Program-made: the position numbers and the translations under genes
Assembly: GCF_003795145.1 (NCBI RefSeq)
Contig: NZ_CP027786.1
Span: 1,736,001-1,800,000 of the forward strand
Direction of reading: 5' to 3'
DNA length: 64,000 nt
Source: Tetragenococcus koreensis
GTDB lineage: Bacteria; Bacillota; Bacilli; Lactobacillales; Enterococcaceae
The notes under the pieces: generated by a model
Seen by the model: only the letters and a program-made list of their open reading frames with translations
Databases searched by the model: none
What the model was told of the DNA's origin: nothing
In this document: one piece after another, positions 10,696 through 26,775 of the stretch
Position numbering within the stretch: position 1 is the first letter of the stretch
Layout: each line of letters opens with the position of its first letter

Positions 10696-12642
10696 TTAAC
10701 CAACCGCAGTAAATAAATAATCTCCATGTTCTAATCGTTTTTCCTCGGTAATTAATACCTCGGTAATCTCACCTGTATTGGTCACAATGATCGGAACATC
10801 TAGTTTATAACCTTTTTGTTTAATTTTATCTATTTCAAAACGAATTAACGGCTGCCCCGCTAATACCTCATCGCCCTCATTTACAAGTTTTTCAAAACCT
10901 TCTCCTTCTAATTCAACGGTATCTAACCCAACGTGAATTAAAATTTCTGTGCCAAGCTCTGTTATCAAACCGATCGCATGACCAGTTTTGAAAATCATGC
11001 TAACTTTGGCGTCGGTCGGTGCATAAATGATGCCTTTACTAGGCATCATCGCAATACCTTTACCCATGGCTCCACTGGCAAATACCTCATCTTCTACATC
11101 TGTTAAATTTTTTAATTCACCATCTAAAGGGCTGGCAATGATCTCTTGCTTGCGACTTGTTTCAAGCTCAGCTTTACTTAAAGGCTGTTTACTATTTTTT
11201 CCACCCGTCTCTTCAGTATTTGTATCAACTTGCGGCGTTTTCATAAACATCTGAATCATAAAAGCGATCACTGTCACTAAGATAAATGAAATCACTCGAT
11301 GCCAAAAGTTCATGGTAATTTGTCCGTCATCAGTAATATAATTCGTGATAGAAAAAATTCCTAAACCTCCGATACGGTAAACGACCACATCAAAAAAGCC
11401 TGTATAAGCTCCACCTATAGCACTAGAGATTAAAGCAATAATAAAAGGTTTCTTCATTGGTAATAATAGCCCGTAAATCCCTGGTTCAGTTACACCGAAT
11501 ATGGAAGCAATTGTGGCTGGAATCCCAATATTTCTCACATTTTTATCTTTATTTTTAATAATAATGGCCAATAAGACCCCTAGTACACCAAAACTGGCGC
11601 TTCCTGAATTAGACAAAATTGGTGTAAAACCTTGTTCAGAAAGCTGTAATATCCCAATAGGAGCCAACCCCCAATGCAAGCCAAACATTACAAGAAGTTG
11701 CCATAAACCGCCGACTAATGCACCAAAAATGAGGGGGCTCAATTTATAAATACCCATAAATACTAAACCGATCAAATCAGTGCCCCAAGTAGCAACAGGT
11801 CCGATAACCAAAATCGCAAGCGAAGCTGCGACTAATACCGTAAAAAATGGGGTTAAGAATGAATTGACCACAGATGGAATAATTTTTTTAAATCCTTTTT
11901 CAACTTTGGCACCAAACCAAATCGCTAAAATCGTTGGAATGACCGTTGAATAATAGCCTCCAGGAGGTAATAACACCGGAATACCTAGAAATGTCGTAAA
12001 TACGTCTGCACTAAATGGCGTTCCTGTAAATAATGTATAAAGCGGTTCTCCTGCGGATAGATCGCTTAAAGATGGATAAACAAGAGCAAAGGCGATTGCT
12101 AGAGCAGAATAAATATTCATACGGAATTTTTTAGCCGCCGTTAACGCAATGACAACCGGTAAAAATTGAAAGAAGCCATCGCCGACTGCATTCAATACCG
12201 CGTAAAACCCGCTATTTGCTTCATTCAGCCCAAAAACGCCCAATAAAGCAACCAAGCCCTTGATCATCCCAGTAGCACTTAGTACCAAAATAAATGGTTG
12301 GAAAATGCCAGAAATCAAATCAATAAATTTATCGAGTAATGTTCGATCCTTATTTTTATTATTGGTAGTAGATTCAGCATGTCTACCATCGATATTAGAA
12401 TTATTTAAAATCGCTTCATAAACCGCGCCAACATCACTACCAATAACCACTTGGTATTGTCCACTTGCTTGAATGACAGTGACAACACCTTCTAAATTTT
12501 TTAAGTAGTCCGTATCCGCTAAGTCCTCATCTTTTAAATAAAACCTCAGGCGCGTCATACAACTATGTAATTCTGAAACGTTATTTTCACCTCCCACATG
12601 TTCGATGATCTCTTTTGCCAGCTTCTTATAATCTTTTGCCAT
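10696..12642 (-). CDS. bglP: Beta-glucoside-type PTS permease EIIBCA
   Basis: A 648-residue fused phosphotransferase permease. The EIIB domain (about 1-90) carries the phospho-Cys C28 in HSCMTRLRF. The EIIC domain (about 105-470) has the channel-forming membrane segments. The EIIA domain (about 500-648) carries the phospho-His in LIHVGLDTVELEGEGF. It imports and phosphorylates a beta-glucoside or related disaccharide; sucrose- and trehalose-type permeases share this layout, so the sugar is not certain. No glycosidase or BglG antiterminator is adjacent, unlike the second copy at 28927. A strong hairpin 145 bp upstream may be an attenuator. Confidence 0.9.
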   Translation of the reverse strand: MAKDYKKLAKEIIEHVGGENNVSELHSCMTRLRFYLKDEDLADTDYLKNLEGVVTVIQASGQYQVVIGSDVGAVYEAILNNSNIDGRHAESTTNNKNKDRTLLDKFIDLISGIFQPFILVLSATGMIKGLVALLGVFGLNEANSGFYAVLNAVGDGFFQFLPVVIALTAAKKFRMNIYSALAIAFALVYPSLSDLSAGEPLYTLFTGTPFSADVFTTFLGIPVLLPPGGYYSTVIPTILAIWFGAKVEKGFKKIIPSVVNSFLTPFFTVLVAASLAILVIGPVATWGTDLIGLVFMGIYKLSPLIFGALVGGLWQLLVMFGLHWGLAPIGILQLSEQGFTPILSNSGSASFGVLGVLLAIIIKNKDKNVRNIGIPATIASIFGVTEPGIYGLLLPMKKPFIIALISSAIGGAYTGFFDVVVYRIGGLGIFSITNYITDDGQITMNFWHRVISFILVTVIAFMIQMFMKTPQVDTNTEETGGKNSKQPLSKAELETSRKQEIIASPLDGELKNLTDVEDEVFASGAMGKGIAMMPSKGIIYAPTDAKVSMIFKTGHAIGLITELGTEILIHVGLDTVELEGEGFEKLVNEGDEVLAGQPLIRFEIDKIKQKGYKLDVPIIVTNTGEITEVLITEEKRLEHGDYLFTAVG

Positions 12643-12786
12643 GATTTTCCTTCCTCTGCTTTATAATACGTTCATCTTGTTCAAAAAATGATAAGTGTAT
12701 GTTTTTAAGTGCTAATTTCTATGTTCTTATCAACGGTAAAAATACGGTTAATATTAAAAATTTAAATCATTTCCCCATTTTTAAAT

Positions 12787-12853
12787 AAAAAGCCTAAACA
12801 AGACAAAAAAGATCATAGCATAACATAGCTAATTTTGTCTTGATTAGGCTTTT
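12787..12853 (-). terminator. Long stem-loop upstream of bglP, terminator or attenuator
   Basis: AAAAGCCTAA-CAAGACAAAA and its complement pair almost perfectly over about 20 bp around a ~25-base loop, with T runs on both strands. It lies 145 bp upstream of bglP, and no gene ends just before it on the minus strand. It could be a leader attenuator, or a plain terminator of a transcript crossing the repeat array. No RAT-like sequence overlaps it that I can see. Confidence 0.7.
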
Positions 12854-12944
12854 CTTTTACATAAATAATTTGACGTTTTTTAGTACACTGTTTTAGTTAC
12901 GGTTAGTAAAGACAATTTTTTATATAGTTAAACACATAAGAATG

Positions 12945-13205
12945 CAAAAGCAGTATGGCTATGGGTAATTAAGGGCAGTAGATATGAAAAACAGTGTACC
13001 TAATTTCCTTTAAGAACAGCACTTTTGAAAAACAGTGTGGCTAATTTACTTATTAAGCGCAAAAAATGCTACATTTTGCTAAATAAGCACACAAGAGTTT
13101 AAAAATAGTGAGACTATCAGTGATTAAGAGCAGTAGATCCAAGAAATAGTGAGGCTAATTTTCTGTAAGAACAGCGTTTTTGGAAAGTGGTGGGGGTAAT
13201 TTAAA
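12945..13205 (-). repeat. Degenerate tandem array A: 41-bp units with 155-bp superperiod
   Basis: A motif close to AAAAACAGTGTGGCTAATTT recurs with its CAGTG/TAGTG core at 12951, 12992, 13033, 13106, 13147 and 13188. The steps are 41, 41, 73 (=41+32), 41 and 41 bp, so any unit matches the one 155 bp on: 12951 with 13106, 12992 with 13147, 13033 with 13188. The two halves agree at roughly two thirds of positions by eye. Read on the minus strand, the units resemble array B at 26064-26530 (TTTnTC then TGCkCTTA). No open reading frame explains it. Confidence 0.8.
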
Positions 13206-13339: not shown

Positions 13340-13903
13340 TTAGTTATTCAAACATAGAAGCTGTGGCCATTTATCTGCCCAATCCTTTTGTAAGATTCTC
13401 TTTCTATAAGCTGCCATGCGTTTAACATCTTCTTGAAAGTAAGGTGTAGGACATACTTTGAATTGAACAATATCATTAATTCCATAAGGACAAAATAATT
13501 CTACTTCTGTACGGTTATTGTTGAGCTTTGCACCAATAGCTGTACAAATCTCGGGAAATTTTGAAATTGCATCGCAAGAAGATTTATACGGTTGTGTGTT
13601 AGGGTTGTGAGAATGCATATATATTTGATTTTTTACTTCCCAGTTAAATCTGGTGTGCTTTTTGCATAGATTATTTTGGATTTTTAAAGTATTCTCGTAA
13701 CTGATACGCTCATCGTAAAAGATCACATCAACGTCAGTTGTAAAATCAAAATTTCCTTTGCCACTTAGATAATTCCAGATAAGGTTTCTGATCGCCCCTG
13801 CACAAAGCCATGCGTCTTGAAGATTTAACCTATCAATCGTGCATAATATATCCATCATCGTAGAATCTTCTTCTATGATTTTTTTTAGGTCTTTTATGTT
13901 CAT
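13340..13903 (-). CDS. Nucleotidyltransferase-fold protein (NTP_transf_6/DUF925)
   Basis: A 187-residue protein of the COG3575 type, a nucleotidyltransferase-like fold of unknown substrate. The family start AGAIRNLIW (residues ~36-44) and the metal-binding acidic pair in TTDVDVIFYDE (~56-66) are intact, and length is normal. It stands alone, with the degenerate repeat array downstream and a broken acetyltransferase gene upstream. A plus-strand frame overlapping its 3' end looks like a chance frame. Biological role unknown. Confidence 0.85.
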   Translation of the reverse strand: MNIKDLKKIIEEDSTMMDILCTIDRLNLQDAWLCAGAIRNLIWNYLSGKGNFDFTTDVDVIFYDERISYENTLKIQNNLCKKHTRFNWEVKNQIYMHSHNPNTQPYKSSCDAISKFPEICTAIGAKLNNNRTEVELFCPYGINDIVQFKVCPTPYFQEDVKRMAAYRKRILQKDWADKWPQLLCLNN

Positions 13904-25151: not shown

Positions 25152-25787
25152 TCACTCCTCATAGAAAAAACCGATGTCATCCACTGTAATGTGTCCAAAG
25201 TAATCCTGCAATTCATCTTTTTCCATGCCGTGTTTGTAAAAGCCAAAGGTGATCGTCTCATCTGCTATGATACAAGTTCCTAGCGCTTTTCCTTCCACCG
25301 AAGAAATTCCGGATGGCGCATCGATAGCATAAACACGAGCTTGTTTAGCTGCATTCATTTTTTCGATCGCTTTTAAAGGTTTTCCTTCTACCGGTCGGTT
25401 CAATCCGATACCAAATAAGGCGTCGACAATTACCGTAGCTGTTGTAAAATCAATTCCGTCTAAATCAGTTTTAATCGATGCTCCGTATCCTTTAGCAATT
25501 TTTTGTTGCAAACGATTTTGTTCAGAATAATGATCAGGGTTTCCTACTACCAAAATTTCTACTTGAAAGCCTTCATTATGCAAAATTCGTCCTACTGCAA
25601 TCCCATCGCCGCCGTTATTACCACCGCCAGCTACGATAACGATTTGATCTTTTTTAGTTATCGTTTGTTTCATTTGAGCAGCAATTGCACGTGCTGCACA
25701 TTCCATCAATACGTTCGAGGGTACACCTTTGTCGTTCATAATTTTTTCTTCATAATGATACATTTCTTCTGCAGTCAGTGTTTTCAT
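25152..25787 (-). CDS. nnrE: NAD(P)H-hydrate epimerase (YjeF_N)
   Basis: A 211-residue stand-alone YjeF N-terminal domain, which interconverts the R and S forms of hydrated NAD(P)H so the dehydratase can repair them. The nucleotide-binding motif VAGGGNNGGDG (~residues 52-62) and the potassium/catalytic Asp region VDALFGIGL (~119-127) and AIDAPSGISS are intact. The partner dehydratase NnrD is not fused and not in the window. It sits just upstream of rarA. The 905-bp mobile element is inserted about 75 bp upstream of its start. Confidence 0.93.
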   Translation of the reverse strand: MKTLTAEEMYHYEEKIMNDKGVPSNVLMECAARAIAAQMKQTITKKDQIVIVAGGGNNGGDGIAVGRILHNEGFQVEILVVGNPDHYSEQNRLQQKIAKGYGASIKTDLDGIDFTTATVIVDALFGIGLNRPVEGKPLKAIEKMNAAKQARVYAIDAPSGISSVEGKALGTCIIADETITFGFYKHGMEKDELQDYFGHITVDDIGFFYEE

Positions 25788-25852: not shown

Positions 25853-25861
25853 CCATTCAAT
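25853..25861. repeat. Left target-site duplication
   Basis: CCATTCAAT, identical to 26767-26775, directly abuts the left inverted end of the 905-bp element. Confidence 0.8.
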
Positions 25862-25883
25862 CTAAGTGTAAAATCGATTGAGG
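25862..25883 (+). repeat. Left terminal inverted repeat
   Basis: Begins CTAAGTGTAAAAT and ends GATTGAGG. It matches the complement of 26745-26766 at 20 of 22 positions. Confidence 0.85.
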
Positions 25884-25889
25884 TTTCAT

Positions 25890-25992
25890 AACGTAAGAAA
25901 GAAACGAGTACCCTTTTTATTAGGCTGTAACAAACGCCAATGATAGAGGCAATCTCTTGCGGAAACGGTCATAAAGAAAAGACTCTTACGTT
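25890..25992. repeat. 103-bp segment with 10-bp inverted ends
   Basis: AACGTAAGAA at 25890-25899 and CTCTTACGTT at 25983-25992 are inverted copies matching at 9 of 10 bases. The enclosed sequence is less AT-rich than its surroundings and is open on the minus strand for about 37 codons without a clear start. It could be a nested small element, a structured RNA or part of the original mobile element. No flanking duplication is visible. Confidence 0.5.
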
Positions 25993-26063
25993 GTAGAAAA
26001 AAATATATGAGATGCTAATGAAAAAGTAAATTTTTGACAAGGGCCGAATTTACTGGAATTATA

Positions 26064-26530
26064 CCATGACTTTCATAAACTGGTGGATTAAGGATGAATT
26101 AACCTCATTAGTTTGTCGTTCCTATGCGCTTATTTCCTTTTTAGCACATGATTTTGTCATTCTTATGCGCTTAATCTATCTAAATTGAGCTTACTTGACT
26201 CCTTTTTTTGAATTAAGCTCATAGCTTGGTCAATCTGGTGGGCTTAGCATGAATTAACCCCACTAGTTTGTCGTTCCTATGCGCTTATTTCCTTTTTAGC
26301 ACATGATTTTGTCATTCTTATGCGCTTAATCTATCTAAATTGAGCTTACTTGACTCCTTTTTTAGAATTAAGCTCATAGCTTGATCAAACTAGTGTGCTA
26401 AGGATGAATTAACCTCACTAGTTTGTCAATCTGGTGGGCTTAGCATGAATTAACCCTACCAGTTTGCCATTCTTATGTGCTTATTTCCTTTTTAGCACAT
26501 TATTTCTTCAACTAGCGGGCTAAATCGTTG
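26064..26530 (+). repeat. Tandem array B: 155-bp superunits built from 41-bp steps
   Basis: The marker GTTTGTC/GTTTGCC recurs at 26111, 26266, 26421 and 26462. The first two intervals are exactly 155 bp. The two full superunits differ at about 8 of 155 positions by my count, and the first ~97 bp are identical. Inside a superunit, TTTGTC-like boxes recur after 41, 41, about 32 and 41 bp. The third superunit has collapsed to its last 41-bp step (26421-26461), then a partial unit follows. Each superunit offers two hairpins: CAAACTAGTG/CACTAGTTTG-like, and ATGCGCT/AGCACAT around TATTTCCTTTTT. Confidence 0.9.
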
Positions 26531-26744
26531 CTAGTTATTCTCCTTAAAAATTTTTCTATCTTTTGCTTCTCAGAAAGGTTGTTTGCGGTTGCGTTCATTA
26601 TTTTTCCTAACAGAGAGTCAGTTTTAGCGAGAGGATGTTACTAATTATTTTATAATAGAATCCATAAGAAACCGTCATCTTTGTTATTAATACTTGACCG
26701 TTCAATAACAAGCGTAATAATTTCTTTTTTTATCCTTTAGAAGG

Positions 26745-26766
26745 CCTCAATAAATTTTACACTTAG
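26745..26766 (-). repeat. Right terminal inverted repeat
   Basis: Begins CCTCAATAA and ends TTTTACACTTAG. It is the inverted counterpart of 25862-25883. Confidence 0.85.
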
Positions 26767-26775
26767 CCATTCAAT
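26767..26775. repeat. Right target-site duplication
   Basis: CCATTCAAT, identical to 25853-25861, immediately follows the right inverted end. Confidence 0.8.

Follow-up and report, generated by a model that had tools for sequence, protein, structure and literature searches.

BOX elements are modular intergenic repeats, made up of boxA, boxB and boxC parts, in which an internal unit of about 45 nt is repeated. Such elements of Streptococcus pneumoniae are named in passages of PMC10969869. Efa-1 of Enterococcus faecalis has been modelled as a 163 bp element with an adjacent pair of stem-loops, and the passages that describe it (PMC2267715, PMC1590033, PMC3733652) also place Efa elements near gene 3' ends and list EFAR among MITEs. 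Efa-1 and EFAR would appear to represent one family. BrickBuilt of Porphyromonas gingivalis, as described in passages of PMC4596501, has 19 intergenic copies in one strain and is comprised of 23-nt units without spacers and of ends like those of the IS5 family.

Arrays A and B, two members of a repeat family of Tetragenococcus, lie in the window, which is the whole stretch of 64,000 nucleotides of Tetragenococcus koreensis DNA that was analysed. BrickBuilt is the nearest precedent for this repeat, and BOX and EFAR are also among the closest kinds. The likeness to BrickBuilt, within the scope of the same passages (PMC4596501), lies in a tandem repeat carried by a miniature transposon-like element, the intergenic location, the variable unit number, the limited host range and the lack of a transposase, and further in the occurrence of copies without leader or tail. 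Unlike BrickBuilt as portrayed there (PMC4596501), the Tetragenococcus repeat groups its 41-nt dyad units into triads joined by a linker, one of its copies has ISLre2-like ends, its sites are shared across the genus and one array has been replaced. By its description, BOX is alike in being modular and intergenic and in repeating an internal unit, but the Tetragenococcus repeat has triads and a linker. With EFAR/Efa-1, so far as the cited passages go, it shares the intergenic location, a host genus of the same taxonomic family and a similar style. No printed description of Tetragenococcus arrays of such kind was met in the open-access literature searched, nor in passages of PMC8249745. Array A is probably an old, drifted copy of this Tetragenococcus-specific modular intergenic repeat, which has spread by transposition and array exchange.

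Array A and its surroundings

Array A (12926..13202, + strand) is comprised of six units of 41 nt arranged as 3+3, as identified by profile scans and comparison with shuffles, and is common to L176 and L178 of other species. A 40-nt profile trained without array A places the unit starts at 12926, 12967, 13008, 13081, 13122 and 13163, all on the + strand, with a summed six-unit score of 138.1 against a maximum of -60.9 in 1000 shuffles. An earlier note on this DNA had reported an array here with steps of 41, 41, 73, 41 and 41; the array is real and placed as claimed, the steps are the same and the noted cores correspond to the profile starts plus 25. The 73-nt step is made by a linker between the triads (13048..13080, + strand, from the unit coordinates) that has 54-57% identity to the orthologues. 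The superperiod of 155 bp that the note proposed is equally evident: the array contains two 120-nt copies, 155 nt apart and 73% identical, and at lag 155 as many as 88 of 120 bases agree, the best of 1000 dinucleotide shuffles reaching 58 over lags 30-199. The suggestion that arrays A and B are oppositely oriented holds in broad terms, with 6/6 units of array A on the + strand and 6/9 units of array B on the - strand by profile, the strand of any single unit being soft because the units are imperfect palindromes. A CRISPR reading fails, as the 34-nt units have about 7 nt between them, repeat as modules and have no unique spacers.

The array is flanked by a PTS EIIBCA gene (10696..12642, - strand), assigned by Pfam and by its orthologues, from which the orthologous site can be recognised in other species, and on its other side by an NTP_transf_6 gene (13340..13903, - strand; Pfam) for which no match at E <= 0.001 was found among 8 congeners. 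Array A is intergenic, and 23 of the 24 array loci of the genome overlap no ORF of at least 100 aa, the one that does (L125) overlapping the ORF end by 7 nt. A terminator scan at array A found none. Terminal inverted repeats were not found at array A (L001), which has no match to the 26-nt terminal repeat with up to 8 mismatches allowed.

Between the array and the PTS gene there is an inverted repeat with 27-nt arms of 89% identity and a promoter-like site (12782..12859, - strand). The repeat overlaps this site, which lies upstream of the PTS gene, and has the appearance of either a terminator or a promoter with a palindromic operator. By eye, 5 of the 6 upstream regions compared from relatives contain a similar stretch, whether or not they have array A.

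Extent of the family and architecture of the module

The scan of the full genome and related genera that the earlier note proposed has been carried out by profile. Using a 40-nt model built from 72 units, and BLAST, we have identified 98 unit matches in at least 24 loci of the genome; this is a lower bound because 150 of 2618 first-look candidates were scored, and one pair of these loci represents a single split array. The family is present in 8 of 9 Tetragenococcus genomes (40-nt model, E <= 0.001) and was not found in any of 96 other Enterococcaceae genomes from 16 other genera (E <= 1e-5, stricter filters). In this it would differ from EFAR/Efa-1, which was compared by description. A pattern scan likewise gave no Enterococcus record, and the 96 genomes are not known to include E. 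faecalis. The first idea, that the arrays are EFAR of Enterococcus faecalis as characterised in passages of PMC2530867, PMC2267715, PMC1590033 and PMC3733652, was dropped; the arrays in the pattern scan are all from Tetragenococcus. Loci of two genomes of the genus (G004, G008) have 100% identity to named records, of T. muriaticus (L129) and of Tetragenococcus sp. (L130, L131, L133), and the NCBI taxonomy puts Tetragenococcus within Enterococcaceae. That scan, of an 84,980-species collection, gave 10 stretches, of which 8 are from Tetragenococcus and 2 (L132, L137) are lone matches that by eye seem to lie in coding sequence and have no array. Comparison of array B with 72,556 plasmid and 50,697 phage records, from which near relatives of the genome of the window may be absent, gave no match, and the short unit pattern has none in viral contigs.

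One genome of the genus (G006), in which the YjeF protein has 59% identity to that of the window, has no units at E <= 0.001 and weakly matches one end of the element that carries array B. The family may therefore have arisen after the split of G006, or have been lost from it.

The claim that arrays A and B are members of a single dispersed family is sustained by BLAST, by the profile and by the 24 loci, as well as by a profile built from only the six minus-strand units of array B. The last recovers the same six starts in array A, where its summed score is 85.0 and the highest value among shuffles is -4.6, far from the chance-level match that the earlier note had named as its refutation. It is hardly credible that the two arrays are simple minisatellites made independently by local slippage. 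Local duplication does occur, since the modules of array B are 92% alike, but the detection of array A by a profile of array B already contradicts an independent origin; further, the linker step recurs in 7 genomes, two linkers are found in 4/63 arrays only and subfamilies are common to unrelated sites.

The unit consists of a 34-nt imperfect dyad and a 7-nt spacer. We propose that this is the building block, that it would occur three times and be followed by a linker of about 32 nt to form the 155-nt module and that two modules minus the last linker would give the usual element of about 277 bp. Among 63 tabulated arrays a linker step of 64-75 nt occurs in 46, from 7 genomes, and the full 3+3 layout is contained in 27, from 4 genomes; the 63 are those fetched and not all that exist, three are single units, and several arrays of G004 and G005 are near-identical pairs and so not independent rows. 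L005, L015 and L023 were excluded as overlapping duplicates. A linker step of 64 nt is found in L140 and L155 alone. Compared with L167, theirs is the one case of a linker that is shorter by 10 nt, or close to a turn of the helix.

The unit profile has a single sharp dyad centre with a score of 0.481, the next being 0.328. This symmetry is what would be expected if the arrays were sites for a dimeric host DNA-binding protein, laid out in helix-phased triads, and if array A were kept for working where it stands, for example upstream of the PTS promoter. We consider this unlikely: the candidate protein is putative, and the helical phasing, 41 and 73 nt being near 4 and 7 turns, is arithmetic alone.

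Array B and its miniature transposon

Array B (26056..26486, - strand; profile scans) has nine units in a 3+3+3 layout and is the younger copy. It is carried by a 905-bp non-autonomous, MITE-like element (25862..26766) with the ends CTAAGTGTAAAAT.../...ATTTTACACTTAG. Both ends resemble the ISLre2 left end, with 72-76% identity over about 100-130 nt. In the genome studied the element is flanked by a perfect 9-bp target-site duplication, CCATTCAAT, the left copy at 25853..25861 and the right copy at 26767..26775. The adjoining YjeF_N gene (25152..25787, - strand; Pfam) marks the empty site in relatives. A single CCATTTAAT is present in L073, L074 and L076, and a diverged single site at the point of insertion in L075 and L078; the empty site was thus read in 5 of 7 relatives, the stretch of L077 lying inside the gene (short contig) and that of L079 being not alignable by eye. 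No units were found near the YjeF_N gene of the relatives.

The terminal inverted repeats of the element therefore resemble those found on an autonomous element in its own genome, and together with the target duplication and empty sites they show that array B arrived by transposition, delivered to its site inside an ISLre2-like miniature transposon. Being a tandem repeat within transposon ends, intergenic and in several copies, it also has the features of a MITE-enclosed minisatellite of the BrickBuilt type, in kind and not as a sequence family, the other loci being mostly without intact ends. The ends match multicopy elements, and the two of these that were examined (L120, L121) encode an ISLre2 transposase. 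The relation to the ISLre2 family (NCBIfam NF033529) lies in the resemblance of the ends to one end of the multicopy ISLre2 of the genome and in the 9-bp duplication found at both L123 and array B, whereas the element itself has no transposase and the array does not belong to the insertion sequence. An ISLre2 transposase acting in trans is likely to have mobilised it.

In G000, G001, G004 and G005 the ends of the element have many equally scoring matches, a pattern to be expected of multicopy insertion sequences. L123 has the 9-bp duplication at its flanks and a broken reading frame. The possibility that the unit ends are copies of the ISLre2 terminal repeat was considered and is too weak to be more than a lead, as scores of the same height are reached by 0.2% of genome positions in the most favourable of 8 comparisons and by 1-31% in the others.

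Intact transposon ends are found at array B alone, with remnants in L013, L016 and L019 (scan without L124-L127), and most arrays have no known mover. Because array A itself lacks transposon ends, its arrival is argued from family resemblance.

RNA folding of the arrays

Efa elements have been proposed to form double hairpins near gene ends, and the arrays could similarly be RNA elements. The consensus of one other subfamily is predicted to form adjacent hairpins, and 12 of 20 arrays, array B included, have a folding z <= -4 on at least one strand. The halves of the unit pair in 73.6% of cells against 70.1% in shuffles, with a covariation score of 0.190 against 0.147 that none of 500 shuffles equals. 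Array A itself, however, with z of +1.05 and +0.10, shows no excess of folding over shuffles, and the same is true of its orthologue with +1.11 and +0.22, so that array A does not have the two adjacent stem-loops of Efa-1 as these are described in the passages cited. Most of the pairing signal within the unit comes from one of nine stem positions, compensatory change is seen in only 2 of the 49 pairs predicted for the subfamily, and neither array A nor array B matches Rfam at gathering scores. A role of the arrays as RNA elements is thus very unlikely.

Array A in other species and the conservation of spacing

Relatives of the PTS gene have 80-89% identity in seven congeners and are partial in G004 and G005. 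In two species, G002 and G003, the place of array A is also occupied by an array, with steps of 41, 41, 73-74 and 41. Aligned with array A over 277 nt, these copies are 65% and 63% identical to it and require one gap base and none respectively, and the flanks of the site hold gaps of 3-36 nt in the same comparisons. Seen from the genome studied, the best match of array A is the paralogue L004 (68%), followed by the orthologues L178 (65%) and L176 (63%). For the copies of G002 and G003 array A is the best match outside each other, so array A may have evolved in place and not been replaced, and our confidence in the copy reading was lowered very slightly on this account.

No units were found at the PTS gene of G001, G007 and G008, which speaks against sites of a dimeric protein that are kept for their function there. 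As an array that G001 shares with G002 is identical in the two (L141 and L145), array A was probably lost in G001.

The proposal that the architecture is kept while the bases drift has been examined in 14 orthologous pairs, counting gaps of less than 100 nt. The arrays have 15 such gaps in 3123 columns with 822 substitutions and the flanks 46 in 3510 columns with 742, a deficit with p of 4e-4 per column and 2e-5 per substitution. L020/L163 was excluded from these totals (one detected unit against six), and the gap rows are not independent, as the comparisons of array A between G000 and G002 and between G000 and G003 have one side in common. With fewer small gaps per substitution in the arrays, spacing is kept better than bases, and the proposal is upheld. 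Such a deficit would follow if the individual loci depended on their spacing; it favours sites of a dimeric protein and counts against selection on source copies only. Most of it is supplied by the 7 diverged pairs (9 gaps to 676 substitutions in the arrays, 29 to 480 in the flanks) and little by the 7 closer pairs (6 to 146 and 17 to 262).

The substitutions bear on the same question. Positions conserved in the family are kept in array A more often than variable ones, with 94/114 against 66/126 in the comparison with G002 and 88/114 against 66/126 with G003, and many array sites are common to several species, both of which are in accordance with binding sites. The paralogues L001 and L004, which lie at different sites, are however patterned as the orthologues are (94/114 conserved, 72/126 variable). 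Closer pairs have little or no excess conservation: L124/L139 retain 111/114 conserved and 118/126 variable positions, and in L176/L178, the closest species pair, differences are found at 6/114 conserved and 1/126 variable positions (108/114 against 125/126 retained). Recent divergence does not spare conserved positions in this pair. L140/L167, with 102/114 against 101/125 (p 0.04), leans toward protection of conserved positions. As the paralogues are patterned like orthologues and L176/L178 show no protection, we take the layout to have been passed on from source copies under constraint. According to the proposed mechanism, the fixed layout and the conserved bases would be maintained by selection on source copies and not by function at array A.

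The earlier note had left a choice between a structure-level function and repeated spread from a common source. Spread is borne out by the terminal repeats, duplication and empty sites of array B and by the replacement at L159/L019 described below. A structure-level function at array A is not, since there is no excess of folding, the array is missing from G001 and the changes in the closest pair do not avoid conserved positions. The arrays thus provide a clean case in which a fixed repeat arithmetic seems functional, yet is explicable by copying from constrained sources. The case rests on shared sites, one replacement with sharp borders and one insertion with a duplication and an empty site. 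The family also supplies a marker for the genus, and raises the question of whether the 41/41/73 spacing is required by a protein, and by which one.

Turnover of arrays at fixed sites

L159 of G008 and L019 of the genome studied occupy the same site, with 86-96% identity outside the array and 38-76% inside, and inside the array L159 has 76-98% identity to array B. The array at this site has been replaced, with sharp borders, by another member of the family. Gene conversion would be the simplest cause, and array replacement at fixed sites in general may proceed in this manner. Since its sister copies include the cargo of a transposon (array B) and a swapped-in array (L159/L019), the layout that array A shares with them favours common descent over a proven local job.

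The similarity set includes both arrays for eight orthologous comparisons. Sister copies apart, L124 (95%) and L140/L167 (84%) match their orthologue best, and it is not the best match for L003 (54%), L009 (59%), L019 (57%) and L144 (45%). A tentative and rather doubtful extension would have the 3+3 arrays as phased dyad sites for a putative Tetragenococcus-specific dimeric protein, either a chromosome organiser or the own recombinase of the element. The arrays would be exchanged as whole cassettes between fixed sites, with the layout selected and the sequence turning over.

Five larger gaps of 109-156 nt at shared sites correspond approximately to three units or one module, and changes in array length may occur via recombination between modules. 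At 1316.7-1318.6 kb of the genome studied, a 7-unit array is split 3+4 into L021 and L017 and is intact in G008 (L158); the intervening stretch has an IS256-family transposase gene and the break lies within the linker.
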